Shown here: piece after piece, positions 1-35,418 of the stretch
How positions within the stretch are numbered: the stretch's first letter is position 1
Layout: every line of letters begins with the position of its first letter
Origin: Lunularia cruciata
Lineage: Eukaryota; Streptophyta; Marchantiopsida; Lunulariales; Lunulariaceae
Direction: 5' to 3'
DNA: 64,000 nucleotides
Assembly: GCA_948567375.1 (NCBI GenBank)
Contig: OX419760.1
Coordinates: 61,500,911-61,564,910 of the forward strand
Notes under the pieces: generated by a model
What the model was told of the DNA's origin: nothing
Database searches by the model: none
The model's input: only the letters and a program-made list of their open reading frames with translations
Position numbers and translations under genes: made by a program

Positions 1-461
1 GGTTTGACCCCTAGATCTCTTGTTCCTAGACTGGTGCCCTAGCCAACTGGTGCCCTAGCCAACTGGTCCACCCTCACTTGTTGTCATAGTGACTGTGCCA
101 CTGTTATCTATACACATGTAGCTTTGGCTAGGAGAGTTTGTTTGATCCCATTCTTGGTGATCTTGGTAGCTTAGGACTTAGATACAAACTGCTCTTATGT
201 CAAATGCCAAATGGTGGCAGAGTTAGTCCCTTTTTGTGTTATGAGATGGAGGGTTTTCATTTAGATTTCTTGTTATTAGACCCCCTCCATTCTCTACTTC
301 TTGTTTGTGCACCACATTTGTGTGAGGTGCCCTGACTTTTGAGTGTTGGTGCTCTGGTGTGCTCTCAATGGTGAGGCTGGAGTGATGACCAATCAGACTA
401 CCTTTGTTTCTCTCCGATGAGGTAGGAAGTGATGACCTACAGACCGTGAGAGTGCGTGTTA
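1..461 (+). repeat. Probable 5' LTR or leader remnant of the DNMT-bearing gypsy element
   Basis: No coding signal is seen. It contains a 20-bp direct duplication (ACTGGTGCCCTAGCCA and neighbours, about 31-67). It lies directly upstream of a degenerate primer-binding-site candidate, which suggests LTR sequence, but no second LTR is in the window to confirm it. Confidence 0.35.
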
Positions 462-478
462 TGATATCAAGTTACAGG
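462..478 (+). other. Candidate degenerate primer binding site (initiator Met tRNA type)
   Basis: TGATATCAAGTTACAGG resembles the plant Met-tRNA primer site TGGTATCAGAGC with G-to-A changes, and sits 5' of gag as expected. The match is weak and rests on position plus partial similarity. Confidence 0.3.
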
Positions 479-526
479 TTGCCCTTTCCCCTAGTGTAGT
501 TATCTTGGTTAGAGTTACATTAGTGG

Positions 527-2211
527 GTGGTGCTTAGTTGGTATTGGCACTTGGTGGTGTTGGCACGTAGTGGTGTTGACACTTGGTGGGGTACTTGCGG
601 TTGCGACTTGCGGTTGCAATTGGTGGTTCGGGTTTGCTATTGTGGTTACTTTGTCACGACGGAGTTCTTTGGAGATTCCAGAGGAGTTAGCCCTGCAATA
701 CGCAGTGGGTTTACTCGGAGTGGTGCTTGGTATCAGCTTGTATCTCAGGTCCTAGTGAGGGAGGAGATTGACTCTGAGTTGGAGTTAGACACAGGAGCTG
801 ATTCAGTTGAGAGTGCACTTGGTGTGTCCGCACCGTTGTTGTGGGACATGGACAAGATTTATGGGGCCTCCAAAGGCCCTAGGCGTTACTTTGGTACAGT
901 GGGTACCATTGAGTTGGATGACTTCATCCAAGAGTTTGACAGTTGGTGTGATCTGCAGCAGATGCGGAACCTAACTTTGTTCACACCCTTCATGGCAAAG
1001 AAGGGGTTGTTTTAGCATCTGGAGGGTCCGCCGATGGATGACTACCATGAGTTCAGGAGAGCTCATTTGGAGGAGATTGAGTTATGGAGACAGTATTGGT
1101 CTCCACACTATGTCTCCATCACTTCAGGCTCGGTGGCTAGGAGTAGATCGGCTGTACCCACGAGCTCTAGCTCGAGTAGTGTTGGTGGAGCTAGTGGAGG
1201 TGCACTAGCTGGAGATAGTGCTACTACGAGTGGAGGTACCGCTGCAGGAGGTGGTATGGTACCGGGGTTTAACCCCATGGTGGAGTTCTTTCTATGTTTG
1301 AGGCAGAACTACCAGGGAGTGCGGACTGACAAGCTGAGGAGCTTGCAGGAGTTCCAGTGGAAGGCTTAAGAGAGCCTACGTGAGGCATACACTCGCATGA
1401 GGCGGCTGATCAGTTTCACTCAGGGAGTTACTAAGGCCCAAGCAGTCTAGTTTTGGTATGGGATACTAGATAGGGAGTGCGACGTAGAGTTCATGATGCT
1501 ACGTTGTTGCAGGCTACTTTGCCCACTTTGGTAGTTGTCTTTGGTTTGGCTGAGCGTATTGAGCTCAATATGGTAGAGGAGAGAGTGGTGACATCTGGAT
1601 TTGGAAGGGAGACCTCATCCACGGCTGTGACTTATTCTAGAGTGCAGTAGAGTGCACCACGCCCAGTTGGTTTTTGAGGACAGGGTGGACAGCCCAGATC
1701 CTATGGAGCAAGTGGGGGGCCTAGTGGAGTTAGTCCCTTACCCTCATTTTTAGGTCAGCAGCAGCCATTGAGTGGTGGTGTTGCTTGTTGGACTTGTGGT
1801 GGACCTCACCATAGGAGAGAGTGTACTCAGGGCAGCGGACCTGATACCTTTGGTGCATCACAGCCAGCACAGAGGCAGTGTGAGCATTGCCACAGATTTG
1901 GTCACACTAGTGACCGGTATTTTGACCTACACCCGGAGTTACGGAGTGGTAGGGCTGCTATGGTGGGTAGTAGAGGAGCTCTAGTTCATGGAGGACAAGG
2001 TGGTAGAGGTGGTGGTAGAGGATCTACACCTAGTAGGGGTGCAGTACCTGCCCTTACTTCTGACACAGCTATGGCTACTTGGATTGAGCAGTTGGAGCAA
2101 AGATTGGCTAGTATGGCTATTGCTCAGAGGAGATCAGATTCGGGTGCTGAGGCTTCCACCTCATATGCTGGTGATAGAGATGCTTTGGACTTCATGTGTG
2201 GAGCAGCATAG
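527..2211 (+). pseudogene. gag remnant of the DNMT-bearing gypsy element
   Basis: Three reading-frame pieces (527-1015, 1034-1369, 1768-2211) are separated by stops and small frame changes. The middle piece has a charged helix-like part (HEFRRAHLEEIELWRQYW) followed by a Ser/Gly/Ala-rich linker. The last piece carries two zinc knuckles. The first, CWTCGGPHHRREC, is one residue short of CX2CX4HX4C. The second, CEHCHRFGHTSDRY, has Tyr in place of the last Cys. Gag forms the particle and the knuckles bind RNA; both knuckles look damaged. TAA at 1376 and TAG at 1448 fit former CAA and CAG codons. This is non-functional as written. Confidence 0.75.
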
Positions 2212-2689
2212 GTGGATGCATCTGCAGCAGTGACTAGGAGTGCAGTACGTGCTCTAGAGCCTAGAGGAGCATCAGTGGAGTTGGACCCACAGAGAGGAGA
2301 GGTTGGGAGACAGGTCAGACTTCCCTAGTCTTCCACGCTATCTGAGGCATTGCAAACAACATCTATGGTTCCTAGACGTCCCAGTGTAGGTGTGGTAGGT
2401 GGTGATGGAGTACATGATGGACTACCTGCTAGTCAGCCACCTGCTACTATAGAGATTGAGTCTAGCATGATGTTGGGGGCGGCTCAGCTGATTATGCGGC
2501 GTCCTTTGTTTTCGGCCAGTGATATGTTTACATTGGGAGTTGACCCAGCCCCAATACTCCGGTTGGCTGCCACGTTGTGTGAGAGTAGGGATGGTGCAGT
2601 TCCTACTACTAGAGCAGAGGTGGTTGGTAGTGGAGCTGACTTGGTTGAGAAGCATGGGGTCCGTTCAACGACCAGTGGTTTATGGTAGG

Positions 2690-3530
2690 CAGCAGCGGCT
2701 AGACTGGAGGAGTTGCCAACTAGACCGGCCTTTGAGAGAGCGCGGTTCACACCTGGTGTTGTCCTATTGGATAACCAAAGGGGGATTTTTCATTTGGTGG
2801 GACCTTCAAGGAAGGTCTATACACCACAGAGAGTCTTGTTAGACTCTGGTGCGTAGCCTCTTATGTTGGGGAAGGCTGCTGTTATTGGTTTGGAGTTACG
2901 GAAGACCGATTTGGAGAGGTGTCCATTTTAGATCTAGACATCTCTAGGTGGTGGTTTGACACAGTACATCACACGTGGAGAGCTTGTTGTCCAGGTTCAG
3001 CCTGGTCATCCGACTGATAGCTCGGTGGTGAGAGCTCAGGCTATTGCGACAATAGCTGAGTCATATGATGTGCTAGTTGGGGGAGTAGTGTTATACCCCA
3101 TGGGTTTCAGCATTGACTATTGGGAGGAGATAGCCTCTTATAGACCTGGTTGGCAGTCTGGTGAGGGACGGGTATGTCACCTACCAGTATGCTTTAGTAG
3201 TGGCAGTCTTGGCTCACTACAGTCTAGGACCATGGCAGCATCAGTTTTAGCTTTCAGTGGTGCAGTTACTTGGCTTGGTGACTTGTTGGAGGGGAACGCC
3301 CATGCAAAGGATACTCCAGTACCAGAGGAGATCACTCGGCTTTGGAGTATGAGTGGGATTGTTCCATCCACCTTGGATGTTCCATTGTGGAGTTCAGAGG
3401 AGGCATTGCAGCAGCATGCAGATCAATTGGTGCAGCAGGCTTGGAGTGGAGCCTTTGTACCATCAGGAGATGAGTGTGAGGATGAGCCTCCAGAGGCAAT
3501 TGCTTTGACACCTCTGGATATCACACTCAT
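2690..3530 (+). pseudogene. Aspartic protease and linker region of the DNMT-bearing gypsy pol
   Basis: RVLLDSGA at about 2830-2853 is the catalytic loop of a retropepsin; the next codon is TAG (2854-2856), probably a former CAG. Downstream, SYDVLVGGVVLYPMGFSIDY (about 3062-3121) matches the C-terminal strand region that in plant gypsy proteases reads 'YDVLLGxxxL'. The open frame 2956-3717 then continues through an acidic linker directly into the methyltransferase domain, so protease and methyltransferase belonged to one polyprotein. Confidence 0.7.
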
Positions 3531-3540
3531 TGCTTGGCAG

Positions 3541-3861
3541 TATCCTGTAGAGGGGATATGCCTATTGGAGTTGTTTGGTGGGATCAGCACCGGACTAGCT
3601 GCGGTGTTACAGGCGGGTATCCGAATACAGAGGTACTTGTATGTAGAGAGGGATGAGACTGCTAGGCAAGTCTCTCTACATCATATGGCACACTTGGCCT
3701 ATCGGTATCCAGAGTAATTACGGATGTCAGCAGTCAGAGGTTACCAGAAGGCCCTACCAGGAGACATTTCCTTACTGGGAGCACATGACCTAGAGAAACA
3801 TGGGCCTATTCACTTGGTGATTTTTGGATGGCCATGTCAGAGACATACACATGCGGGCCGC
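3541..3861 (+). pseudogene. Cytosine-5 DNA methyltransferase domain of the retrotransposon, N-terminal half
   Basis: This half carries the SAM-binding and catalytic motifs of the C5-cytosine methyltransferase family. Motif I is LLELFGGISTGLAAVLQAG, followed by the motif II acidic strand YLYVERDETARQ. Motif IV is HLVIFGWPCQRHTHAGR, with the catalytic Cys in a Pro-Cys-Gln context. The family transfers a methyl group from S-adenosylmethionine to C5 of cytosine in DNA. It sits in frame after the protease linker. A TAA at 3715-3717 interrupts it (fits a former CAA). The E4 insertion begins at 3862, just after HAGR, and separates it from the C-terminal half. Assignment to the C5 methyltransferase family is firm from motifs I and IV; activity of this copy is excluded by the breaks. 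Confidence 0.87.
3858..3861. repeat. 4-bp target-site duplication of E4 (left copy, CCGC)
   Basis: CCGC precedes the E4 end TGTTGGGGAAA; the same CCGC follows the other end at 6983-6986. Removing E4 and one copy rejoins the methyltransferase reading frame. Confidence 0.75.
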
Positions 3862-4539
3862 TGTTGGGGAAATTGTTGGCCTCGAGAGTGCACCGAGCAC
3901 CTGGCTGCTTGTGGTTAGTTTGCCGTTATTGTAGTTGATTTAGAGTTTCTCGTAGTCTATCATTCTCTTCCTATTCCTAGTGTGTTGGAAATCTCAACTA
4001 TGTAAAATTTTGGGTTTTCCTTTGTTTCCTGATGTTGGGCTTCTCGAGGGTTTGTGTTTGTCTTTGGCCTTCGCAGAACTGGCGAGTTCATGCAGGTTCT
4101 GCTACGGTTTCGGACCCGACGGTCCCTAGGAATGGCTGGGAATTTCACAAACAACAAATAGTATTCTATTTGGCTCAACCCGGCACCCAGACTACTGAAC
4201 CAAACCATTCATATAGACAGAATGAGAGCTCCTAAAATGGAACTTCCTCTACGCTTGTCAAAGATCAAACACACCATTTCTCAAGATTTGTCATTCATAA
4301 AATTCCAACTGCAAGGTTCACAAGTTTGGAAAAGCCAACCAATTCCAGTTCATATGGAGTATGCACTAAATTATGACAGAAAATCATTTCAGCTGGTGCC
4401 TTCACACGCACTCTGTCCGATAACAGTAAAGACGACTCACCCTCCGGACTTCTTCCTTCACCTCCCAGCAGCACTCCCATCAATGCTTTCTCCTCTGAAC
4501 ACCCTCTGTCTCTCTCAAAAGTTCCTGCAAACTTCTCTC

Positions 4540-5800
4540 TTGAGACTCCTTTGGCATTTCCCAAAAACTGTCAATCCTTCTCACTGTGAAAAACTCAACT
4601 CCTGCCCAACCTTGCCAACTTCCCTCTCGAAATCCTCTGCAACTTTCTCTCTTGAAACTCCTCTCCTCATTTCCGAAAACTGGCAGCTCTTCTCACTTTT
4701 GATATTTCTCCATCGCTTCCCTACTGTCTTCTCCCAAAATCCTCTGCACTTTCCCAAAATTGGCAGCTGTTCTCACTTTCGATAATTCTCCATCACTTCC
4801 CTACTGTCTTCTCTCGAAATCCTCTGCACTTTCCCAAAAACCCTACTGTTCTTTTCTCGAAATCCTCTGCACTTTCCCAAAACTCTTCCCCTCATTTCCC
4901 AAAAACTGGCAGCTCTTCTCACTTTCGATAATTCTCCATCACTTCCCTACTGTCTTCTCTCGAAATCCTCTGCACTTTCCCGAAAACTCTACTGTTCTTT
5001 TCTAGAAATCTTCTGCAACTTTCTCTCTCTGAAACTCCTCTCTTGATTTCCCAAAAACTGGTAGCCCTTCTCACCTTTCAATAATTCTCAATACTTCCAT
5101 ACTGTCTTCTCTCAAAATTCTCTGCACTTTCCCAAAACTCTTCTCCTCATTTCCCAAAACTGGCAGCTGTTCTCACTTTCGATAATTCTCCATCACTTCC
5201 CTACTGTCTTTTCTCGAAATCCTCTGCACTTTCCCAAAAACCCTACTGTTCTTTTCTCAAAATCCTTTGCACTTTCCCGAAACTCTTCTCCTTATTTCCC
5301 GAAATTGGCAGCTCTTCTCACTTTCGATAATTCTCCATCACTTCCTTACTGTCTTCTCTCGAAATCCTCTGCACTTTCCTGAAACTCTACTATCTTCCCT
5401 TCTCATTCCCCGAAACCCTTTTCGATCCTCTGTCCTTCCAAAACCCTACTGTCCTTTCTTGAAATCTTTTGCAACTTTCTCTCTCTGAAACTCCTCTCTG
5501 GATTTCCCAAAATTTGGCAGATCTTCTCACTTTCAATATTTCTCCCTCACTTCCCTACTGTTTCTCTCGAAATCCTCTGCACTTTCCCAAAAACCCTACT
5601 GTCCTTTCTTGAAATCTTCTGCAATTTTCTCTCTCTGAAACTCCTCTTTGGATTTCCCAAAATTTGGCAGCTCTTCTCACTTTTGATATTTCTCCATCAC
5701 TTCCCTACTGTTTCTCTCAAAATCCCCTGCACTTTCCCGAAACTCTTCTCCTCATTTCCCAAAACTGGCAGTCCTTCTCACTGTGAAAAACTCAACTCCT
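4540..5800. repeat. CT-rich tandem repeat array inside E4
   Basis: Units built around CTCGAAATCCTCTGCACTTT and GATAATTCTCCATCACTTCC recur about 10 times. Spacing is irregular: the second motif starts at about 4780, 4926, 5180 and 5324, giving a near-146-bp higher-order spacing in places. Long open frames here (rich in Phe, Leu, Ser, Pro) are by-products of the repeat composition, not genes. Confidence 0.8.
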
Positions 5801-5829
5801 GCCCAACCTTGCCAACTTCCCTCTTGGCC

Positions 5830-6895
5830 CAAGAGAGAAACACGGGATCTTCCTGCATGACCCTAGAATCTAAGACCCAACGATACCCAGTTCCTGTCTA
5901 CTTCCTCCACATTCATCAACCATAGGGACCCAAACTGGCCTGCTCCACGATCTCGTTGTAGCAAAATCCTTCTTAGCCAACATATGTCGAGAAAAAGTCA
6001 ACTAAACGGTGAGCAATTCGACTTCCATGTGTTCAAACACAGCAGAGCATCTGAACCCGCATTTGCTGTGGACGGGGAGAGGATTTGAACACAACTAGTA
6101 CATCCACATATAGAAGCTGAAAACTTCTGCACAGTCCAATTATCCTTCACCATGAAGATGGAGAGCCAAGAAATACATGCAAAGCCCCCTTCGTAATCAA
6201 CCCAGTCCCTTCCACCTCCTTTTTGGACTCCCCTACAACAATGAGCTTGTCATAAACTCATACTTCTGTGCTCCTCCCCTTTCTATCTCACACTAGGAAT
6301 CATCCTTTACTTTTCCTATAACCCTGACGCCTCCACCCTTTAGAGTTCTCGAACTCCTACACGCAGGACCTTTCTAACCTTTCATTACAACACCATAATC
6401 ATCTCCCACCCGCCTTCCATTCTCGGCTAAACACCCCATTACACCGGTCCAAGTATAGAATATGCACGTCTTGGCCGAAGGACCCTCATGCCAAATTTGA
6501 ATCTCTTCGCGTGGTGTCCAATCCTTTCTCCGTTAGCCCTGATGAACACAGGATAGTGCGAGCTAATGCAAATGGAGCTGCTACATCGTTCCTAGCCAAT
6601 AACAGAGAATGTTTCCTAGATCATGCTGTAAACTCCCTGAACTCTGTAACTAGCCAACTGCAATGGCCTCATGCAGTTCGGCACCACGTGAAAGTGCCCT
6701 CGGGCTTGCTTACTTTGGTGTTCATGATAGCAGCCAAGGCATTGATACCTACCTCCCCAAATCTGAAAGGAAGGACCTCGTCTCACTTACAGACCTTGGC
6801 TAACAAACACTCCACCCCCAAACCTGGACGTTGTTACAATCTCATTCCCCGAGCATAGAGTTTCTATCCACCTATTCTCTGCACTGAACCACCCC
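5830..6895. other. Non-repetitive part of E4, no recognisable content
   Basis: I see no domain, RNA gene or repeat here. A 115-codon open frame at 6511-6858 has no recognisable motif and no homologous counterpart in E1 or E2, so I do not call it a gene. Confidence 0.4.
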
Positions 6896-6982
6896 AATTT
6901 GGGGCTTCTGTCTAGCCAACTCCTCTTCTTGAAATCCTGCAACCACTCCTTACCACTCTCATCTGGCCTTTTCCCGATGACA

Positions 6983-7665
6983 CCGCGGTTTGGGTCTTTA
7001 GGATCCTTGTTCTGGTGTGTTTTGGGAGATGTTACGGATACTACATCTCCAGGTTCATCTGTCTATTTCTCCAGCTTACCTTTTTGTGGAACGTTCCTTT
7101 GATGGGTGATTCTTGCACTAGAGTGGTGGCGTGTACACATCAGGTCTATTCTTGGATGGGACCTGCTGTATTGTTAGATGCAGCCAGAGTGGGATCACGG
7201 GCTCATTGTCTTCGTCTTTGGTGGAAAAATCTCTTACCCAAAGAGGTTCTATAGCGTGCTTATGATGGGATTCAACGATTGGACCACATCCTTGTTGATG
7301 ATATCTTGGATGTTGGGTGTCAGTCTCAGATAGTGGTAGTGGCTGATAGGTCACCTATGGCAATGGTGAACCTAGTTGGACAGCCTAGAGCCGCATTTCC
7401 CACACTCATGAGTTTCCCAAGCTCTCATGCTTTTTGAGAGGGAGGACTTGGACTTGTTTGGGACTCACAGTTACAGCAGTTGGTGGAGCCCAACGCTGAT
7501 GAGAGAGAGCGGGTGATGGGTTTTTGCATCGGTATTACCGCTATTCCAATAGTGTCAGAGGCATCCAAGCGTCAAGTGTTAGATCAGGCTATGGACCTGA
7601 ACTGTTTGACTTGGATTGTGAGCCTTGGCTTGGCAGAGCAGCGTAGGATGCACTTGATAGGCATC
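6983..7665 (+). pseudogene. Cytosine-5 DNA methyltransferase domain of the retrotransposon, C-terminal half
   Basis: After the CCGC duplication the methyltransferase continues. FWEMLRIL helix sequence is followed by AYLFVE and, after a one-base frameshift at about 7089, NVPLMGD: together these are motif VI (ENV). Next comes SRAHCLRLWWKNLL (motif VIII-like). The motif IX/X region reads NADERERVMGFCIGIT then SEASKRQVLDQAMDLNCL, resembling the closing block of the DNMT3/DRM group (Met-Gly-Phe-Pro ... Leu-Gly). Stops at 7252 (TAG) and 7437 (TGA) fit former CAG and CGA codons. The domain order I-IV-VI-VIII-IX-X is canonical, not circularly permuted as in plant DRM enzymes. Confidence 0.83.
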
Positions 7666-8609
7666 TTCACTCGGATACTTGTGAGCCATGTGCCTATCAA
7701 GATGATTCAAGCACATGCTGGGGGCGATGGACCGAGTGGACATGGTATTCTTGGGACACATCCAGTAGCTACTAGGGAGAGTGGTCTACTTAGAGTCCAT
7801 CTAGGTGAGTGTGGGCTACTTGGTTTACACCCTTGGTCCACATGGGATGTAGCCAGAGGACGTGTGGAGCTTGTAGCCAGAGTGGAGGGAGTTTTTCACA
7901 TAGAGGTTGGGACCTCTAGTGGTCGGGAGCATGACACTATTGCTACCAAGGGCCCAGTGTAGCAGTCAGTCAGTACGTCTTCCACTCCTATTACAGTTAC
8001 AAAGGATACTTGGGAGCCAGATCTTGGACCCAAGCTTATTGGAGAGGAAAGACAAAGGGTTTGGAGGTTCTTGAGGAGTCACACAAGTTGTTTTGCCTTT
8101 AGTATGAAGGATTTGGGTGCTTTGAAGGGATTGGGTATACGGATTGAGCTGACTAGCAACACACCAGTTTTCCAACATCCTTATTGATATAGTGAGATGG
8201 AGAGGACATTGATTCAAAGCCGGAGTAGTGACCTTTTTGAGGCTGGTTTGGTGGAGATTTCACATGGAAAGTTTGCATCAGCAATAGTGATGCCAACCAA
8301 GAAGGATATGCATGGCAACTATACAGATAGGCGGATGTGTGGAGATTACCGTCCTATCAACCGATAGACCAAGGTTGATTGGTATGCCATGCCTACACCA
8401 AAGGAGATTTTTGATGCAATTGGGCATGCAAAGGTCTTCAGTACTTTGGATCTTTGAGCGGGATATCATCAGTTGCCGATCAAGGAGGAGGATAAGTCCA
8501 AGACAACATTTTGGGCTATTGATCCTCATGGCAAGGATGTGTTATATCAGTGGATGTTCTTACTATTTGGGTTGAAGAATGCTCCTACTGAGTTCCAGAG
8601 ACAGACTTC
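7666..8609 (+). pseudogene. Linker and truncated reverse transcriptase of the DNMT-bearing gypsy element
   Basis: After about 300 bp of degenerate linker, Ty3/gypsy RT motifs appear. These are the primer-grip approach (FEAGLVEISHGKFASAIV), MCGDYRPINR, AKVFSTLDL with the first catalytic Asp (then a TGA that fits a former CGA), AGYHQLPIKEEDKSKTTFW, and LLFGLKNAPTEFQR. Sequence then switches at about 8609 to an E3 fragment, so the second catalytic pair (xDD) and everything 3' are missing. It follows the methyltransferase in the same orientation, which places the DNMT domain between protease and RT. Confidence 0.85.
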
Positions 8610-8790
8610 TGTTCATGTCCCTTGCAAAAAACCTTTTCCTGTTCCTGTCCTTTGCAAAACCTTTTTCTGTTCCTTTCACAAAATTTCCAACTACCACTCC
8701 TTACCAAGCTCATCTGACATTTTTATTTTTTTTTGAAAACTCTCTACTGTCCCGTCCTCATCACTCTATTCTGGCCTTTTCCCGACGACA
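8610..8790 (-). mobile_element. E3: 5' fragment of an E-family element
   Basis: On the - strand it starts TGTCGTCGGGAAAAGG and runs through the same sequence as the start of E2 (33764 onward), including the AGGAACAG/AAAAGG minisatellite units. It is truncated at about 8610 against gypsy RT. Right flank is CCGT, again CG-centred, inside the P0 coding region. Confidence 0.75.
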
Positions 8791-9828
8791 CCGTTAAGAA
8801 GTCATCTTACATGAGATCATGGGAAGAAAAGTGTAGTCAGAGATGCACTGGTGTGTAGAGAGGAAGTCAGGAGAGTTAGTCCGGGAACCAGTATGAAGAG
8901 TAACAAGCGGTATTCTTCTACAAGATGTTTGCAAGGGAGCCAATCAATTGGACAAAGTGTTTTCATCAGTGTGCAAGACAGATGGTGTGGAACTTGTGAG
9001 ACAAGTCACCTCCACACTACATTGTGCCATTTGCAGCCCACTTCTATTTGGGACTGAACTTGCTGAACACGACAGAGAGACACAAGATAATGTTGCACCT
9101 CCACCCTAATTTGAGAAGAGATGTTGATGGAGAGGAGTAGTAATACATCTTGCAGATAAGGAGCAATGACGAGTACTATGCGTAGACGAGGCAGAGTGTG
9201 CAGTTGAAGGTTAACACTCCAAAGTCAAAGAAGAGGAATCAACAAGGCAAAGAAGAAGAAGCGGTGACAAGACCTCAAAAGACGAGGAAAGCAAACCCAA
9301 GGAGAGACTTGGTGGTAATTGCGTTGTCAGACAAGGAGTCAGAAGGAGAGGCCGAGTGCAAGGAAGAAGACTTGGACAAGGGGGAAGAACCTGAATTCAT
9401 GTTGCAGGGTGGTGACACAAGCAACAAGAGTGACGATGGAGTGGAGATGTAGTCAGTACCCAAGGACAAAGGAAAGCTGGAAATAGAAGAAGAATGTAAC
9501 CTACATGCAAAAGAAGAAGTTCTAGAGTAAGAGAAGAAGAGGATGATCATTCAACAAGGAGTTCACTCCAGACAAAAGGTGAAGTATGAAGTGGGACCAA
9601 GTAAGGTAAGAGAAGTGGAGAGTGGAAGTTTGGGGAGCAAAGAATCCATTCCCATAAGGCGATTGCAGCTGAGAAGATGAGTATCAAGTGAAGAAGAGGC
9701 AAAGAAGGAGAAAAATCCGCAAGTTGAGGTAAATGCAAGTGGAGGAGTAGAGTATTTGTGGGAGGTTGTGTGCCCATTGTTAGTAAAGTTGGAGCACAAG
9801 AAGAAGGAAATGCAGTCAAAGTGTCCAA
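8791..9828 (+). pseudogene. P0: 5' part of an M/P-family element (coiled-coil gag-like protein)
   Basis: Homologous to M2 positions 43500 down to about 42600 and then to the acidic and leucine-rich parts. Recognisable blocks are VFFYKMFAREPINW, HKIMLHLHPNLRRDVD, YILQIRSNDEYYA, then a basic segment, an acidic segment (9300-9450), and the start of a coiled coil. Relative to M1 and M2 it lacks an internal part of the N-terminal domain (junction near 8906) and has several stops, including adjacent TAG TAA at 9139-9144 where homologues read Gln-Gln. It ends in the middle of a codon run at 9828, and the same protein resumes at 31443 (P1). Confidence 0.75.
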
Positions 9829-10375
9829 TGTTGTAAGGACAGTAATCTATGTGAACCATTGGTGGATTTGGTGGGAGACTTTTGTTGACTTTACGTTACA
9901 ATGACTTTGGCATTTTGTTATGTTATTGTGCCTTGGGAATACCTTTCATGCCATTATAAAGTTGGAAGTTATTGTGTGTTGCCATAAGCTTGAGGAAGTT
10001 TCAAGGGTTGAGTAAACTCATAAGTCCTTCTATGTTTCAAGAGCTCAGAGGGTTTGAAAAATGATGCATGAGCTTGGGAGTTTCTTTGTGCTCCACCAAC
10101 TTAGGGCTTAAATTTATGTTACACAAGCTTGGGATTTTGTTTGTGTTATTGGATTTTGGGGGTATTTCATTAAGTAATTTTGAGCAAAAGAGTTGGTTTG
10201 GGATTTTCCATGTTGAGTAGTGACAAAGTGGCCTAAGAAGGTTTTTTGAGTGGATAGAGGCTAAAGAAAAATGCCTTGAAAGGGTTTGGTGGTGACAGGG
10301 CCAAAGGACTGGGGACATATGCTTTGAGAGGCTTGCTGATTGGAGGGGGTACTTCAAAGGCTTATGGACAGAAGA
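9829..10375. other. Left part of E1, non-coding
   Basis: T-rich sequence with short degenerate repetitions of GCTTGGGA(T/G)TTT. No open frame with recognisable content. It abuts the chromovirus 5' LTR at 10376. Confidence 0.5.
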
Positions 10376-10445
10376 TGTAACAATATGGAGTTTAGAGACG
10401 AAGTTAGTTGGGCTTACGAAGTAGAGAATAAGACAAAATAGCCTA

Positions 10446-10458
10446 GAATATTCTAGAA
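10446..10458 (+). promoter_or_regulatory. Heat-shock-element-like site in the 5' LTR
   Basis: GAATATTCTAGAA is three perfectly spaced inverted units (GAAnnTTCnnGAA), the heat shock factor recognition layout. Further GAA/TTC pairs follow at 10467-10486. Confidence 0.6.
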
Positions 10459-10676
10459 GCATCTAAGAAACTTCTTGGGAAGCTTCCTAACTAGTTAACT
10501 TGTGCCCTAAGTAGGTAGCTTCTAGAAGGAAGCTTCTAACTAGCTTAGCTTGCACGCCAAGTAGGCGGCTTCTAGATGGAAGCTTCTTGAGAAGCTTCCT
10601 AGTTAACTTGGCTTGCACTCCAAGAAAGCGGCTCAAGGAAGCTTCTTGAGAAGCTTCAAGAGTCTTGTATGCTACC

Positions 10677-10684
10677 TATAAATA
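10677..10684 (+). promoter_or_regulatory. TATA box of the chromovirus 5' LTR
   Basis: TATAAATA, conserved at 19651-19658 in the 3' LTR and, reversed, at about 41944-41951 in the solo LTR. Confidence 0.7.
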
Positions 10685-10787
10685 CCAAAGCCGAAGCTCA
10701 TGCTAGGCATTCAGAGTTTTCCCTCATTCAAGTGTCCCAATGTGAGTTTCCATTCTCCTATTTCTCCTCGGTTTTGGTCTTTTACAT

Positions 10788-11050: not shown

Positions 11051-11960
11051 ATGGTGGCAATACCGGATGTTATCTTTGCAATGCAACAACAAATCGAGCA
11101 TCTTCCTTGATTGTTGGATGAACGAGACCAGCAACGACAAGAACAGATAGACAGAGCGCCAGTTCAAGATGGAGAAGATCACATTCGATTTCCAAAACCC
11201 AAGGTGTTTGAAGGCAAGAGTCTTCCAGGCACAGTGGAGAATTTTATGTTTGACTGTGAACATTACTTTGAAGCCACCAATCTTCAAGATGAGCGGAAAC
11301 AAATTCTCTTGGCTTCTAGCCAATTGGATGGCATCGCAAAACTTTGGTGGCGATTCCGAGTAGAAGAGCTTAACAACAAATTATTACACCGATTTTCACA
11401 TGGGCAGAATTCAAGGATGCAATACTTGGTCGATTTCAGACTATAAATGCCACCCGAGTTGCACGAGATAAATTGGTGGAGTTGAGGCAGATTGGCTCAG
11501 TGAGAAGCTACATCACACAATTTCAGAATATCATCATGCAAATTCCAAATATCCAAGAAGGTGAAGTTTTGGATTGATTTGTGCAAGGATTGAAGTCACG
11601 AACTAGATTGGAGGTGACCATGTGAGAGCCACAGAACGTAGAAGAAGCCATGCAATTGGCTGAGCGTTTTGATTCCTTAGTTGTGACAACTTGGTCTTGA
11701 CCTCGACCTACGCAAAACCTGCCATTACCACGAGTGGAAGAACCGGTACCAATGGAGATTGATGCTATCCAACAAAGACCACATGGCACAATAGATAGAG
11801 ACAGATTATGACAAAATGGAGGTTGCTTTTATTGTCAACAAGTTGGACATCACATTGCTGAATGTCCACTTAGGAATGGGTGACCTTGACAAGTTGCCTA
11901 GATGGAGTTTGTGGAACAGAATGATCAGGGAAACAAAGAATCCCAGCAGGAGATTTCAAG
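11051..11960 (+). pseudogene. Chromovirus gag
   Basis: The Gag core includes RFPKPKVFEGKSLPGTVENF, LLASSQLDGIAKLWW (the conserved gag helix ending in a Trp pair) and a run around RRLQTINAT-like sequence. The zinc knuckle CFYCQQVGHHIAEC (11824-11865) is an intact CX2CX4HX4C. At least six stops are present (for example at 11107, 11576, 11620, 11698), almost all TGA where an Arg codon CGA is expected. Gag packages the RNA genome into particles. Confidence 0.8.
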
Positions 11961-11975
11961 CCGCCTACTAGGAGC

Positions 11976-12461
11976 TTGATTGGTTCCAATGGGATTGAAG
12001 GCTCGACCTATGCAAGTTTGCTTCACTTGCAAGGTATGATATCTAATTGGGGTTGTAGGATTTTGGTTGATTTTGGAAGTTCAGAGAATTGCATATCTAT
12101 GCAAGTAGCAAAGGAATTGGGTATCCTTATCAAGCCAGTGATTGGAAGTAGTTTGATGATGGCGGATGGTAGACAAGGTTCTGCATTCTGCACCTCACAT
12201 CCTGTTACCTTCAAGATTGGGAAGGAGTATTTGGAGTGTATGAGGTTGGTAGTGGCACCTCTACACTATGATATCATTTTGGGTCTACTTTGGCTTGAAC
12301 ATCATAAGGTTCAATTTGATTGGACCCGACGTCAAATTCAAGTACAACACCAAGGTAGGAATTTCCGATTAGGTTGTCTGGCACCTCTGAGTAAGACACC
12401 TAAGAATAGTCAGTCCCAAGATCGGAAGTTTGTTGAGAAGGTAGCCATAGAGCAAATCTAG
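11976..12461 (+). pseudogene. Chromovirus aspartic protease
   Basis: ILVDFGSSENCIS is the active-site loop; the usual Asp-Ser/Thr-Gly has become Asp-Phe-Gly. Downstream, DIILGLLWLEHHKVQFDW matches the 'ILGxxWL' strand typical of plant gypsy proteases. The same region recurs in a decayed - strand copy at about 45546-45737. After 12461 the frame passes through a two- to three-fold repetition of a 60-bp unit (about 12410-12590, [18 protein letters not shown]). Confidence 0.8.
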
Positions 12462-12506
12462 AAGGGAGATGAGTCCCAAGATAGGAAGTTTGCCAAGAAG
12501 GCAACC

Positions 12507-13126
12507 ATGGAGCAAGCTTGGAAGAGAGATGAGTCCCTAGAAGGGAAGTTTGTTAATGAAGCAGCCATAGAGCAAGCTTTGGAGGAAGATAAGTCTGTAT
12601 TCGTGGTGTGGATCAAGCCGATTGCACAAGAACAATCTGAGGAGGGCCAAGTGCCGCATCAAGCAACGGTTGATTGGATAGTTCAGGAGTTTGCAGATGT
12701 GTTTCCGGATGATCTGCCAAAGGGATTACCCTCTGATCAAGGTATGCCCTTCAAGATTGAGTTATTGCTAGGGAGTACTCCAATGAGTAGACCAATCTAT
12801 CGGCTCTCACCAAAGGAGTTGGAGGAGTTGCGAACAACACTTATAGAGTTCTTGGAGAAGGATTTCATACAACATAGTACCTCTCCATGGGGAGCACCGG
12901 TACTATTTGTTCTAAAGAAGGATAGAGGACTTCATTTTTGTATTGATTACCGTGGGCTTAATAAGCAAACCGTGAAGAATGCATATCCCTTGCCTCGGAT
13001 CAACAACCTGCTTGACCACTTAAGTGGAGCACGCTACTTTTCCAAGCTGGATCTTTGTAGCGGCTATTGGCAAATTCCTATTGAAGGAGAGGACGTGCAA
13101 AAGACTGCCTTTCGCACAAGGTATGG
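12507..13126 (+). pseudogene. Chromovirus reverse transcriptase, part 1
   Basis: RT fingers and palm: [59 protein letters not shown] and [20 protein letters not shown] (first catalytic Asp), ending KTAFRTRYG at the M1 insertion. The frame is open throughout this stretch. It continues at 16899. Confidence 0.9.
13122..13126. repeat. 5-bp target-site duplication of M1 (TATGG, left)
   Basis: TATGG recurs at 16899-16903; excising M1 with one copy restores the RT codons for TRYGHFEW. Confidence 0.9.
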
Positions 13127-16100
13127 TGTGACAACCCAACAAATATCACTTTTGCGGTAATCAGGTAAGTAAAGTTTGTTCCCGCAAAGATACGAGTCAG
13201 AAATGTCCAAATACGAAGCAAACAGTAACAATGTAGTTCTTCTTGGTTGCGTCTTTAATCTCTCAAGTAGAAACCACACCCAGAAGAGAGTAACAAGCAC
13301 TGACTCGCAGTCTTGTCACAAATTAACACTCCATAATCACAAATCCTTCAATTCTTTCCAAACAATCTTGATTGTGATGATTCAGGCTCTCCCAAAAATG
13401 GCACCTCACTGCAAAACAACTTCGCCTCAGAATTGTGTTCCACCCCTCCACTGAAGGCACAACTTCCTCGATCAAAATTGCTTCACATCAACTTTGCACT
13501 GCATTCACAAATGCAGAATACCACCAACACTACAATTCCTCTCAGATCTGTCAAGGCATTGCTTCGATTGCACTTCACTTAGGATCAAACACATAGAATG
13601 AAGATCAAGGCTGTGGAATCCAACATCGAACAAGCACTTTGACTTGCACTTCGAATTTCTCCAAACACTCACAAACACAATTGTGAAATTGATACTCGGA
13701 ATCAAGCTCAAGCGACGAGCACTGCTTCACAGCACTTCGCTTTATCTATTCTCAGAAATAATGAGCACTGAACAACAATTTCCTGCAATTGCCTGTAAAT
13801 AGTGAAGCAATCGACAGTTCTAACAACTATACCGTTCTACAACAACTGTTCTAACCTGTAGATCCAAAATGACAATGCACCTCTTCATATCTGCCTCTTC
13901 AAATCTCAAATCGGTTACTAATCCAATCCGATGTCTACTTCTTCCTCGGCTTTCAAACCTGAACCCAAAGTAATCTTACTTCCTACTATCTTTTCCTTGG
14001 GTTTCAGATCTCCTACATCTTCTACCAGATCCAGCAATTCTCTTTCTTGATCTGAAATTGCACTAGTGGGTAGTCTATCTAACTCTTCATCTTTCGACCC
14101 ACTCTTCCCTAATGTCTCTGAGGGCAACTCCAAAGACATTTGGATTCCTATGTTATCTACCTCGGATTTTGCCTTAACATCCTGCCAAAGCTTTTCTAAC
14201 TCTATTCTCACTAAGTCTAATCTAATCGCAATATTGTCTTCTACCTCTAATATCTTCCTATCTACACGAGTTCTCAATTTAATCAACAAGGCGTTCATCT
14301 TGGTGTCTTTTGCTTGTCTTCGCCTCGTCTCCTGCACCAACAATTTCAACTCGTGCAGTCTCGTCTCTTCAATTCAAACGTTGGCCTCTGTACTTAACAT
14401 CGCGTTCACTTTGAGGACTATTTCCTTCAATGGCTCCAATCTTGTCTTGCGTTCTCGTTCCTGATCTGCAAGCCAGTCCTCTCTGTACATCGCCAATTCT
14501 TCTTTGAATTTGGCCTTCATCACTTCCTTCTCTTTCTCCTTCTGTTCAACCTTCTCTTCCTGATTACGAAGTAATTCTTGTAATCTCTCTTCTTCTCTAT
14601 ATCTCGCAGCCAACTCTCGTTGCCAGAGTTGCTTCTTCTCCTCCATACTCTCCATCACTCGATTGAGCTCTTGATCCTTTGATGCTACCCTTGCCATAGC
14701 ATGGATAAGTTCTACTCTTGAATCAGCAAATTGATGCTTCAAGATTTTGTGCTCCGCTACCTATCTCTCCCGTGCGATGTCACTCTTCCTCGCAAGATCT
14801 TCTCGATAACTCACTTCTCTCTTCAAGTCTTTGATTACCTGACTTCTCTTGACTACTTTTGCTTGCAGTACTTCTCTCTCTTCCTCACCTCAGGTTATAC
14901 TCTTCTTCAACTCCGAGTTTTCTTCTTCTAATCTTGATAAGACCTGCAACACAGTCTTTACCTCTGGACAAGTAGAATGCATCTCTTTCTTCTTCTTCTC
15001 CATCTTCACCAACAGCAAGCATACTACCGTCTGCAGGTAATCTACTCCATTACTGGCAACTTCGTCCTCCCGCAAAGTGGTCTCTCTTCTTTCCTTGTGT
15101 TCTCCCGATACTTGCCTTCTTCTCTAGAATCTTCGTATCGGGATTGATGCCTCACTGCCCAAGCTTTCTTCTACCTCTTCCTTCACTCTACTCGGTCCCG
15201 CTTCACACTTTGCCTTACATCTCGAGCGAATTCCTCACTGTACTGCAATCTTCTTCTCCTTGAGCACTGGTACTTTGTCTTCCAGCGCCGCATTGTCTTT
15301 GGTTTCTACTTCGGCTTGCATTTCTTCTTCGTATTCTTCAGCCGCTGGTACCGATGTCATCTCTCCTCCTTCTTCACTGTCATTGCTTGTATCTCCACTC
15401 TGCAATGTCAGCTCAGGTTCCTCCTCACGTTCCGAGTCCTCCGTCTTGAGCTCAGCTTTTCCTTCTGAGTCTTCATCTTCTGACTCAATCACCACCATTC
15501 CTCGCTTGGGTTATTTTTCTGCATCTTCCGAGGTTTCTTGTTTTCTTCGGCTTCTGCTTGCCGAGTTCTCTTCTTCGTCAGGGTACTTTCAACGACCTCC
15601 ACGTTCTTCCCTGTCTTCGCGTAGTAATTGTCTGTGCTCCGGATTTGGAGAATGTATTGTTGCTCCTCCGCGTCGACTTCTCTTCTCAAATCAGGATGGA
15701 AATGAGACACCATTCTATTGCGCCAAATTGAGCAAATTTAACCCGAGGTAAAAATGTGCTGCAAATGATACAATGTAGTGTGGAGGCGACTTATCCCACA
15801 GATTCCACACCATCTGCCTCGTTCTTCCGTGAAAGCACCTTGCCTAATTGATTGGTTCTCCAGCAAATAACTTGTGAAAGAACACCGCTTGGTGTTTCAT
15901 CACATAGGTAGTTCTCTCCGGCTTCAGGATGGCCATTAGTGCACTCACAATTCCTCTCCTCACAGGGTCTTTGTAGCTCTCAACTTTGTACCCATTCTTT
16001 GTCCTCTTCGACGAGAAGGCATCTCTCACCTCCTGTGTTTCTTGGGCTATCTCTCCTTTCCCCAAGAACGTGGCTCCCTGCTCCGAACCCGCCTCCTTCC

Positions 16101-19327: not shown

Positions 19328-19339
19328 GGCGGGAGAATA
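19328..19339 (+). other. Chromovirus polypurine tract
   Basis: GGCGGGAGAATA lies immediately before the 3' LTR start TGTAAC, as needed for plus-strand priming. Confidence 0.7.
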
Positions 19340-19762
19340 TGTAACAATATGGAGTTTAGAGACGAAGTTAGTCGGGCTTACAAAGTAGAGAATAAGACAA
19401 AATAGCCTAGAATATTCTAGAAGTATCTAAGAAACTTCTTGGGAAGCTTCCCAACTAGTTAACTTGCGCCCTAAGCAGGTAGCTTCTAGAAGGAAGCTTC
19501 TAGAAGCTTCTAACTAGCTTAGCTTGCACGCCAAGTAGGCGGCTTCTAGAAGGAAGCTTCTTGAGAAGCTTCCTAGTTAACTTGGCTTGCACTCCAAGAA
19601 AGCGGCTCAAGGAAGCTTCTTGAGAAGCTTCAAGAGTCTTGTATGCTACCTATAAATACCAAAGCCAAAGCTCATGCTAGGCATTTGGAGTTTTCCCTCA
19701 TTCAAGTGTCCCAATGTGAGTTTCCATTCTCCTATTTCTCTCTTCGGTTTTGGTCTTTTACA
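19340..19762 (+). repeat. Chromovirus 3' LTR (423 bp)
   Basis: Same ends as the 5' LTR. Twelve bases longer because one TTCTAGAAGC-type unit is present that the 5' LTR lacks (around 19493-19510). Other differences are nearly all transitions. Confidence 0.9.
19493..19510 (+). promoter_or_regulatory. Four-unit heat-shock element in the 3' LTR
   Basis: GAAGCTTCTAGAAGCTTC is four perfectly spaced alternating GAA/TTC units. Another three-unit site (GAATATTCTAGAA) is at 19410-19422. Confidence 0.6.
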
Positions 19763-32869: not shown

Positions 32870-33763
32870 CTGAGTAAATTTCCAATTCCTTTGAGTAGTT
32901 GTCCTGCAGTAATGCGTGTCCGGAAGCCCATCAAGAGTGAGATTTTTTGAAACCCTAAGGGAGTTAGAGTGTCTCGTCTAGGAGAGGGTCTTATTTTCCA
33001 ACATCATAGAACAAGAGAACAAATCATGGCAAAGAAGGTGGCCAACGTGCTGGCGGTGAGAGGTTTTGCAATTTGAAGGGTAGATGTAGTGGCGAGAATC
33101 AAAGTCTTGATTAGACTTTGTATTACGTTTTTAGCATGGAACTGGAATTTTAGTTTCTCGGGAGTGATAGCAGAGATTGCTGCTAGTAATTGTGAGGAAG
33201 GTCCCGAGGTGGAAGAGAAGAGAGGCAATCCGGCTCGATGGACTGAGTCGGATTGGAAGTTGGTATTGGGAAGAGAAGCCAGAGAACCAACGGGGATCAC
33301 CTTCTATCGGAAGTGTGATGCTACAGAGGAGACGGCGGAAATCCAAAATTTGTTCTTTGCTCCAAGAACACGAATGGTTACAAGGTGGAGTCCTACTGGG
33401 ACCCGATCCGAAGAAGTATCGTGGGAGCGATGATGGCCATGTTCAAGCCAAAACGAACTACCTACGTGAACATGCAGTAGGCCGTATTTTTCCATCAGAT
33501 GTTTGCAGGAGTTCCCGTGAATTGGGCAAAGTGCTTTCACCACCAAACAAGGCAGATGGTGGTGAATTGGAGAACGGGCTTGCCACCACATTATTTTGCA
33601 CCGTTCAAAACTCACTTCTACTTTGGGCTGAATTTACTATCCAAAGACGAGCATCATCATATGGTGTCTCACATGCATCCCGATTTGAGATGGGAAGCAG
33701 ACGATGAGGAGCGCCAGTATATGTTGCATCTTCGAGCAAATGACAAATACTTCGTGAGGACGG
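32870..33763 (+). pseudogene. P2 gag-like protein, N-terminal domain
   Basis: Aligns with the M1 protein start (LSKFPIPLSSCPA), ITFLAWNWNFSFSGVIAEI, NPARWTESDWKLVLGREA, then FFHQMFAGVPVNWAKCFH, MVSHMHPDLRWEADDEERQY and MLHLRANDKYFVRT. There are several stops and frame changes. E2 interrupts immediately after the last block. Confidence 0.7.
33760..33763. repeat. 4-bp target-site duplication of E2 (ACGG, left copy)
   Basis: ACGG at 33760-33763 and again at 35419-35422 flank E2 perfectly. Confidence 0.85.
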
Positions 33764-35418
33764 TGTCTTCGGGAAAAGGCCAGACAAGAGTGATGAGGAC
33801 TGGACAGTAGAGAGTTTTCAAAAAAAAAGAATGTCAGATGAGCTTGGTAAGGAGTGGTAGTTGGAAATTTTGTGAAAGGAACAGAAAAAGGCTTTGCGAA
33901 GGACAGGAACAGGAAAAGGTTTTTTGCAAGGGACAGGAACAGAAAAAGGTTTTGCAAAGGACAGGAACAGGAAAAGGTTTTTTTTGCAAAGGACAGGAAC
34001 AGAAAAAGGTTTTGCAAAGGACAGGAACAGAAAAAGGTTTTTTTCTGTGAAGGAGGAATGAAGAAGGGAAAAACAAGAAAACAAGGAAGTCGAGGGGTTT
34101 GGGGAGGGACAGGAACAGTTTGAAAGGGGTTTTGGGAATTGGAGGTAAGGTAGGAAGGATCGGTTTCATACAGTATATATCAAGGGAAATGTGTTTGAGC
34201 AAATTTGATCAGTGCATTGGCTTGGATTTATTGGGAGCACTAGAATGAGGAGGAGCAGCAGGTGTGCTGCTGCGGCTTGAGTTTCTCCAATGGGACTGAA
34301 GCAAGAACTAAAGCGGATTTTATCGGAAAACCAATAGAAGCAAGCACAAACTCGCGAGCGAGAGCAGATCCTTGTGTTGTCGTACTTCTTGGGGCCTCGT
34401 CTTACTGAGGCCAGACCTGGAAAATGAGTGATCTTATCGTATGAAGGGCAGAGATGGGAGTGACGGTGATTGACTGCTGCTGCTTGGGACATCTGAGATC
34501 TGGAAGAGAATTTGACAGAGAATCTGTTACTAGTTGAAGGTTTCATCCGAAACTTACTCAAGGAGCAGAGAAGAAAGGCCTAACTAGCTTGCAAAGGGAA
34601 AGTGGACAGGAACAAAAGAAGAGAGAAGTCATGTTCAGCTCAAGATAATACAAGGACTGGATATAGAAACTCAATATGGGACTCGTCGGGAGCTTCTACC
34701 AGGCGTAGAGTCCTATGGCAAGAACAGTGCAGAGCGTTTGGGAAGATCTAACATACCGGAATATCAAAGAGAAAGGAGAATCCCGAGGAAGGACCTACTG
34801 GACAGTGGAGACTTGGAAAGAACGACAAATTGGAGATGCTGCAGAACATGGAGATGACGAGTTGTAAGGAATAGGAAATAGGACCTGCTCAATTCCTTTT
34901 CTTTCTTCATGTGCTTTGCTAGTCAGTGTGCTTCAGTTTGGTCACTGTTTGGTTAGGAGCCGTGTGTCATGGCTCAAAGGATTATAAACTGTGAAACTTG
35001 GAATTGAGATGGAAATGAGATTCCTAGTGATTGAGTGTGTGTACTTGATGTGCAAACAGCAGTAGGAAAGATAATAATAATGTTTTATTTTACTTCTTTT
35101 TTACACTCAGTCCGGATTATGTAGATGGGTCAGCACATTTAACCAATTGCCCGGGATTGAGTCCGGTTGCATAACTTGTGGACAACTCCACAAAACCCCA
35201 CCAGATCATTCTCTCTGGAAGATCAGTCTAAGCCAGAACTACAAAACCCACCAGACCCAAAACATATTAAAGCCGAGGATAATAGACCAACCAAGAGGTC
35301 AAGAATAATGAGCCGAGACTAATAATAGACGGTACAAGAAGGACAAAACACTCCAAAAGCCTAAGCGCAGGCAGCCAGGTGCCCAGCGCAATCTCGAGAC
35401 CATACGATCCCCACGACA
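33764..35418 (+). mobile_element. E2: compact complete E-family element (1655 bp)
   Basis: Starts TGTCTTCGGGAAAAGGCCAG and ends CCCCACGACA. The reverse complement of the end (TGTCGTGGGGA) mirrors the E3 start (TGTCGTCGGGA), giving short imperfect inverted ends as LTRs have. Perfect ACGG duplication. No coding potential is recognised. A TATA-like CAGTATATATCAAGG at about 34172 may mark a promoter. Best reference copy of the family in this window. Confidence 0.82.
33870..34048. repeat. Minisatellite in E2 (about 30-35 bp units)
   Basis: GGACAGGAACAGAAAAAGGT followed by TTTGCAAA is repeated about five to six times. The same units occur reversed in E3 (8610-8690). Confidence 0.8.

Follow-up and report, generated by a model that had tools for sequence, protein, structure and literature searches.

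A Ty3/gypsy-type retrotransposon of Lunularia cruciata with a DNMT3-type domain in its Gag-protease frame, and its relatives in bryophytes and green algae

The stretch of DNA considered here (the window) comprises 64,000 nucleotides of the Lunularia cruciata genome (assembly GCA_948567375.1, contig OX419760.1, positions 61,500,911 to 61,564,910). At its left end, at 1-8609 of the forward strand, blastn delimits the left part of a degenerate gypsy-type retrotransposon, consisting of leader, Gag, protease, cytosine-5 DNA methyltransferase (DNMT) and partial reverse transcriptase (RT), and broken by an insert. Four better preserved copies from the same genome align to it at 93-94% identity across 1-3869 and 6983-8552, and placement with copy L045 puts its 5' end 851 bp upstream of the window. 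The intervening 3870-6982, to which no strand is assigned, is a later insert of about 3.1 kb that is foreign to the element (edges accurate to within about 12 bp, from the break in the blastn alignment); because both flanks match the better preserved copies at 93-94%, we read the DNMT as split by this insert.

All features of the element lie on the forward strand. The Gag region, which includes two zinc knuckles and is broken by stops, occupies 554-2690 (tblastn); the first open reading frame (ORF1) of a genomic copy matches segments 554-1477 and 1477-3990, and the zinc knuckles are seen in an ORF at 1678-2211. A retropepsin-like protease follows at approximately 2755-3178, placed by its LLDSGA motif (2836-2853, then a TAG) and by the position of the protease in other copies. 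The first part of the DNMT (3556-3869), recognized by motifs and homologues, carries motif I (LLELFGGI, 3562-3585), motif IV (PCQ, 3832-3840) and an internal TAA. Its second part (6983-7640) carries motifs V, VI, VIII (7207-7239), IX (7480-7524) and X (7576-7599), with a frameshift at 7084-7095 in the ENV of motif VI, so that N-V lies at 7090-7095 and E in a different frame. Comparison with genomic copies identifies a conserved in-frame UAG at 7960-7962, followed by CAG TCA, which divides Gag, protease and DNMT from the RT. Of the latter only the N-terminal part is present (7963-8609, from RT pieces and blastn), truncated near 8609. The 3' part of the RT, RNaseH, integrase, PHD finger and 3' repeats have no match anywhere in the window (blastn, E 1e-15), and a tRNA scan gave nothing informative. 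The motifs listed in the preliminary description of this stretch are thus all present, and its view that the copy is dead is supported.

A 259-aa ORF at 2938-3714 spans the protease tail and the start of the DNMT. Used as a query, it retrieved 145 proteins at E <= 0.01, the best match (1.2e-81) covering the entire query at 55% identity, and the named matches were from Sphagnum, Marchantia and Calypogeia. A Pfam scan of the degenerate window pieces did not detect the DNMT, even at E <= 1; PF00145 was detected in relatives and in better preserved genomic copies.

Such copies are abundant in the 565.8-Mb assembly that contains the window, for which all copy counts are lower bounds. With the complete DNMT domain of a relative (P0104) as query, 13,362 first-look candidates yielded at least 111 scored places, each spanning 365 or more of the 368 query residues at 72-74% identity; ten of them have a stop-free frame of at least 1428 aa. 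A genome scan with PF00145 gave at least 123 scored matches, five of which were translated. By eye, four are host genes, namely two DNMT3-type genes (L046, L049), a rearranged DRM (L047) and a CMT-like exon (L048), and the fifth (L050) is the element. Most other PF00145 matches, not individually inspected, align to profile positions 48-120, as the element does.

ORF1 is 1428 aa long in eight of the ten open copies and 1431 and 1448 aa in the other two, and encodes Gag, two zinc knuckles, a protease with LLDSGA near residue 762, and the DNMT at 1000-1326. The identical UAG, followed by CAG, closes it in the window copy as well as in 17 of 17 distinct copies; these 17 are best matches to a DNMT query, L022 and L025 being the same copy and counted once. 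The sequence CAR-YYA is a read-through context. In copy L025/L026 the frame beyond the UAG encodes RT, RNaseH, H2C2, rve and, at its extreme end, a PHD finger (Pfam: RT_RNaseH 1.6e-36, H2C2 7e-18, rve 2.3e-12, PF00628 PHD 5.2e-11). The RT of copy L037 matches the Ty3 RT 4ol8 at 2e-14, and this Ty3-related RT and the order protease-RT-RNaseH-integrase are those of Ty3/gypsy elements. With its terminal repeats A and B, the layout of this abundant Ty3/gypsy-type element is A1-[Gag-protease-DNMT3]-UAG-[RT-RNaseH-integrase-PHD]-B1-A2-B2.

The proposal that a retrotransposon carries its own DNMT is therefore upheld by sister copies that contain protease, DNMT and RT. The DNMT does lie between protease and RT, with the refinement that it ends the Gag-protease ORF and is followed by the UAG; the three domains co-occur in copies but not in the single ORF that had been envisaged. 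The expectation of intact sister copies was borne out in part: the Gag-protease-DNMT ORF is open in ten, and no wholly intact copy was found because every one of the ten has an interrupted second ORF (ORF2). Of the 27 relatives that have a complete DNMT but no RT, 20 end 60-145 aa past the DNMT, which indicates that the stop position predates this genome; P0147 and P0148 are single uninterrupted ORFs of 2352 and 2358 aa.

The 5' end of the element is a single repeat, A1 (about 449 nt, TGTCACG...GATTA), and its 3' end consists of B1 (106-107 nt, with a purine run upstream), two bases, A2 and B2. Simple identical long terminal repeats (LTRs) were thus not found at both ends, the 5' end having A only and the 3' end B-A-B. 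Split direct repeats in the order A1...B1-A2-B2 are characteristic of PAT-type DIRS elements. The present element shares this order but, instead of a tyrosine recombinase that acts without target duplication, has a DDE (rve-type) integrase and the short duplications expected of one: in 10 of 10 copies an exact 4-bp duplication lies immediately outside TG...CA. Divergence between A1 and A2 and between B1 and B2 amounts to 65 of 5097 sites (1.28%), which marks the insertions as young; copy L041, whose A1 is mostly deleted, was excluded from the A1/A2 count and the priming test, with its B1/B2 kept. The junction of A1 with the internal region is complementary to A1 positions 257-271 over 15 nt in six of nine copies and over 13 nt in one, whereas only 1 of 20,000 mononucleotide shuffles reached a 12-nt self-complement. 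Tf1-type gypsy elements prime themselves from their RNA's own 5' end, and similar 5'-end priming is predicted here from a sequence signature. We infer that B+A corresponds to the retroviral-type LTR, that the RNA's own 5' end serves as the primer, and that opening at the B/A junction produced the inserted form, a step that would require a circle or a tandem.

The DNMT itself is of DNMT3 type by profile, fold and motif order. It is nearest to DNMT3 by profile (DNMT3A at 1.9e-11 vs a tRNA enzyme at 0.0034) and by fold, the fold comparison being a re-ranking of Foldseek's own best matches with a structure model built from 27 rows, of which P0049 and P0062 barely overlap the domain. Its motif order is canonical, for which reason a rearranged, DRM-type enzyme was rejected, and a phage-type methylase was rejected because matches in viral_contigs were only 24-30% identical; a second viral_contigs scan gave no matches. 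The catalytic motifs are preserved in 16 of 17 copies, so that a DNMT3-type domain has kept its motifs in many copies.

Substitutions in the copies suggest a history of methylation. The window copy differs at 251 of 5043 sites at which two young copies agree, with C-to-T type changes at 53 of 272 CG, 76 of 563 CHG and 47 of 1807 CHH sites; in the repeats of ten copies the corresponding counts are 30 of 434, 17 of 512 and 11 of 1535. This pattern indicates past methylation of element copies at CG and CHG sites, and its presence in old and young copies alike implies that the copies are not protected from methylation.

The PHD finger of the element is closest to those of CHD4 (4.6e-17), KMT2D, KMT2C, PHF12, DPF3, KDM5B, KAT6A, PHF21A and ATXR5. 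Several of these fingers read unmodified H3K4, as does the ADD domain of DNMT3. It is tempting to suggest that the element has rebuilt a DNMT3-like pairing of a writer with an H3K4-reading finger. Chromoviruses, gypsy elements with chromodomain targeting, likewise bear a histone reader at the integrase C-terminus; in the present element no chromodomain was detected there (Pfam, L026:146-2521, E <= 0.05), and a PHD finger stands in its place, together with a DNMT in the element. A PHD-bearing gypsy relative is also known in REM1 of Chlamydomonas.

Two long-protein searches, one of which scored the best 7996 candidates by shared words, yielded 135 relatives, whose domains were scanned with home-made hidden Markov models (HMMs). 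These relatives were found via the DNMT, so DNMT-free elements are unrepresented. With INT denoting integrase, the domain orders were RT-DNMT-INT-PHD (68), DNMT only (37), DNMT-INT-PHD (6), RT-DNMT-INT (6), DNMT-RT-INT (5), DNMT-RT (4), RT-DNMT (3), DNMT-RT-INT-PHD (2), DNMT-INT (1), INT-PHD-RT-DNMT (1) and none (2); in P0146 and P0168 no domain was found over half its length. Pfam agrees on the order in P0148, P0152, P0154 and P0161. Haematococcus (P0222) and Monoraphidium (P0234) have RT-DNMT-INT-PHD, Marchantia (P0126, P0139) has DNMT-RT, Cymbomonas (P0163) has DNMT-INT, and the Sphagnum and Calypogeia proteins have protease and DNMT. The DNMT thus occupies two different positions in the polyprotein, here called layout A (bryophyte) and layout B (algal). 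A PHD finger is present in 77 of the 83 integrases that are followed by 130 aa or more.

Three proteins stand somewhat apart. P0242 (Haematococcus lacustris) has integrase and PHD at both ends, perhaps through tandem elements or a fused gene model. P0235, a complete RT-DNMT-INT-PHD protein labelled Minisyncoccia bacterium MAG, most likely reflects algal contamination of the bin. P0255 (Closterium sp. NIES-53) has a terminal DNMT-like stretch (38% of the query matched) and a listed RT domain, PF07727, which we take to be of copia type; it was not counted as a member and may come from a different type of element with a DNMT, or else from a gene model that fuses two genes.

In a tree with host DNMT3, DRM and four phage methylases, the element DNMTs form one clade (100/99) that spans bryophytes, chlorophytes and metagenomic relatives, and within which the element DNMT of this genome groups with P0104 and Marchantia (94/86). 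Host DRM, on a long branch, falls closer to the stem than host DNMT3, a placement of low support (85/40). Layouts A and B are likewise weakly supported in this outgroup-rooted tree (62/85 and 40/59, from a bootstrap that had not settled). In trees of 35 elements, picked by hand from identity clusters among 77, the layouts are the two sides of one branch, with support in the Shimodaira-Hasegawa-like approximate likelihood ratio test (SH-aLRT) of 97 for RT plus integrase and 88 for the DNMT. Those 77 comprise one copy from this genome and the 76 relatives in which DNMT, RT and integrase are all complete, the rest of the 135 being excluded. Their pairwise distances correlate at 0.61 (DNMT-RT), 0.70 (DNMT-INT) and 0.73 (RT-INT), and within layout B at 0.50, 0.65 and 0.69; 0 of 999 permutations were as high in each case. 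An RT tree with one short outgroup provisionally placed the root beside P0147, inside layout A. Because the element DNMTs form one clade and the distances of DNMT and RT/integrase co-vary, we favor one older capture, and the land-plant gain of the DNMT put forward in the preliminary description is rejected on the evidence of clade, layout and distance. One capture and one relocation would be the simplest reading of these sequences, which place the element in an old family of green algae and bryophytes, the latter including both liverworts and mosses.

According to the available text of PMC5890265, which describes SymbioLINE, SymbioDIRS and KnitGypsy-Dnmt3, a DNMT-bearing gypsy element has one close published precedent. 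KnitGypsy-Dnmt3 of Klebsormidium nitens likewise combines gypsy domains with a non-rearranged Dnmt3-type DNMT within the polyprotein, and purifying selection was reported for it (PMC5890265). In that description its repeats are called DIRS-like; those of the present element are split direct repeats. Our element resides in a bryophyte-type genome, has relatives in chlorophytes, has its DNMT within the Gag-protease ORF, upstream of a conserved UAG, and shows 4-bp duplications. Its integrase also bears a PHD finger, a term absent from the main text of PMC5890265. No Klebsormidium protein was among the named matches of our homologue and relative searches. SymbioDIRS-Dnmt3 and SymbioLINE-Dnmt of Symbiodinium are also DNMT-carrying retrotransposons, for which methylation of cDNA was proposed in the same text, but the former is a DIRS element, which has a tyrosine recombinase, and the latter a LINE; the present element has a DDE integrase. 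DNMT3 inside retrotransposons "in streptophytes and dinoflagellates" is also mentioned in the available text of PMC12344493. Among titles and abstract openings of open-access literature, we recognized no bryophyte or PHD-bearing DNMT retrotransposon, and in the literature searched no prior description was found of the spread, the PHD partner, the stop, the ends or the two layouts.

How might these parts work together? We suggest that the UAG is read through at a low rate, in which case the DNMT would be made at Gag level and packed in the particle with a little RT and integrase. The element RNA may prime itself, its 5' end folding onto the site just after A1 to give a B-A...B-A cDNA, and the DDE integrase may then open a circular or tandem form at the B/A junction; this would account for the split repeats. 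The DNMT could methylate the double-stranded cDNA or the fresh insertion de novo, so that new copies would enter the genome already marked, and perhaps hidden from sensing of unmethylated DNA or less harmful to the host. Through the PHD finger on its tail, the integrase would direct insertion according to the state of histone H3, much as chromodomains do for chromoviruses. Taken as a whole, we regard this account as a little more probable than its negation. More tentatively, and short of an even chance, the element may be an old, self-contained epigenetic unit found across the green lineage, with a Gag-layer DNMT3 writer and a histone-reading integrase PHD, that methylates its own DNA before insertion or as it happens, aims its insertion by chromatin and founds its own silenced copies, in an association older than the chlorophyte-streptophyte split that survived one relocation of the DNMT.

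Several observations weigh against this account. The CG and CHG footprint fits host pathways equally well as self-methylation, and ORF2 is open throughout in none of the ten copies. The ratio of nonsynonymous to synonymous change (pN/pS) in the integrase tail and PHD is 0.91 (small counts, with L029 left out of the ORF2 analysis), and the copies used for pN/pS and motifs were chosen by DNMT similarity, which favors well-kept DNMTs. By our own HMM, only two of seven layout A relatives with a complete integrase have a PHD finger, and none was seen in Marchantia or Sphagnum among the relatives found. Of the 133 relatives with a DNMT domain, 21 lack a simple PC or EN motif match, and the A1 self-complement is lost in two of nine copies. 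Enzyme activity, read-through, RNA start, circle and PHD binding are all predictions drawn from sequence.

An alternative is that the DNMT acts against the host, competing with or scrambling host methylation so that the element escapes silencing. The Gag-level amounts of DNMT predicted from the stop would suit such a titrating role, and young copies are numerous; the strong CG and CHG decay in old and young copies alike speaks against it, as do a predicted fold and motifs that match an active writer, and we judge it unlikely. Nor do we give much credence to the idea that DNA methylation is unimportant and that the domain works on RNA, or belongs to the particle in a structural or nucleic-acid-binding role. 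Its place in the Gag layer and the weak profile match to the tRNA enzyme are in keeping with this, and DNMT2-type relatives do methylate tRNA, but the far stronger DNMT3A match and the preserved catalytic motifs make it decidedly improbable.

Independent captures of a DNMT by bryophyte layout A, algal layout B and Klebsormidium, with no single old family, would explain the two polyprotein positions, and the Klebsormidium case is called independent in the available text of PMC5890265. The weak support for the layouts in the outgroup-rooted tree and a gypsy sample of DNMT-bearing elements only leave room for it, yet the single clade against host and phage enzymes, the A/B split recurring in both 35-element trees and the co-varying distances make it rather unlikely. 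As for a host DNMT fragment trapped by chance in one copy, the degenerate, interrupted window copy taken by itself might suggest it. The same domain in 111 of 111 scored matches, ten of them within a 1428-1448-aa ORF, and in relatives from several plant groups makes this so remote that we rule it out; the test for it proposed in advance fails because sister copies join protease, DNMT and RT.

A puzzle is why a transposon should long keep an enzyme of the family that hosts use for silencing transposons. The literature found described cases in one dinoflagellate genus and one charophyte, to which this family adds bryophytes (Marchantia, Sphagnum) and chlorophytes, with many relatives pairing the DNMT with a histone-reading finger. 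The family offers well-preserved domains, young insertions and two layouts for comparison, reference genomes exist for its bryophyte members (Marchantia and Sphagnum), and the role of the DNMT becomes testable. The combination of split repeats with a DDE integrase is also of interest for how elements close and open DNA.

Other repeats were seen in the window. The insert at 3870-6982 contains a C/T-rich array of imperfect repeats (4535-5824), and about 40 bp of its right end are found again at 8755-8793, just past the RT truncation, and reversed at 33761-33803; one repeat family may thus have hit the window element twice. Direct repeats at 10370-10766 and 19334-19740, 96-98% identical, are LTR-like and apparently belong to another element, and the ORFs between them (11111-13160) code for pieces of gypsy Gag, protease and RT. 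A 164-nt inverted repeat, 76% complementary, pairs 8904-9067 with 15728-15891.

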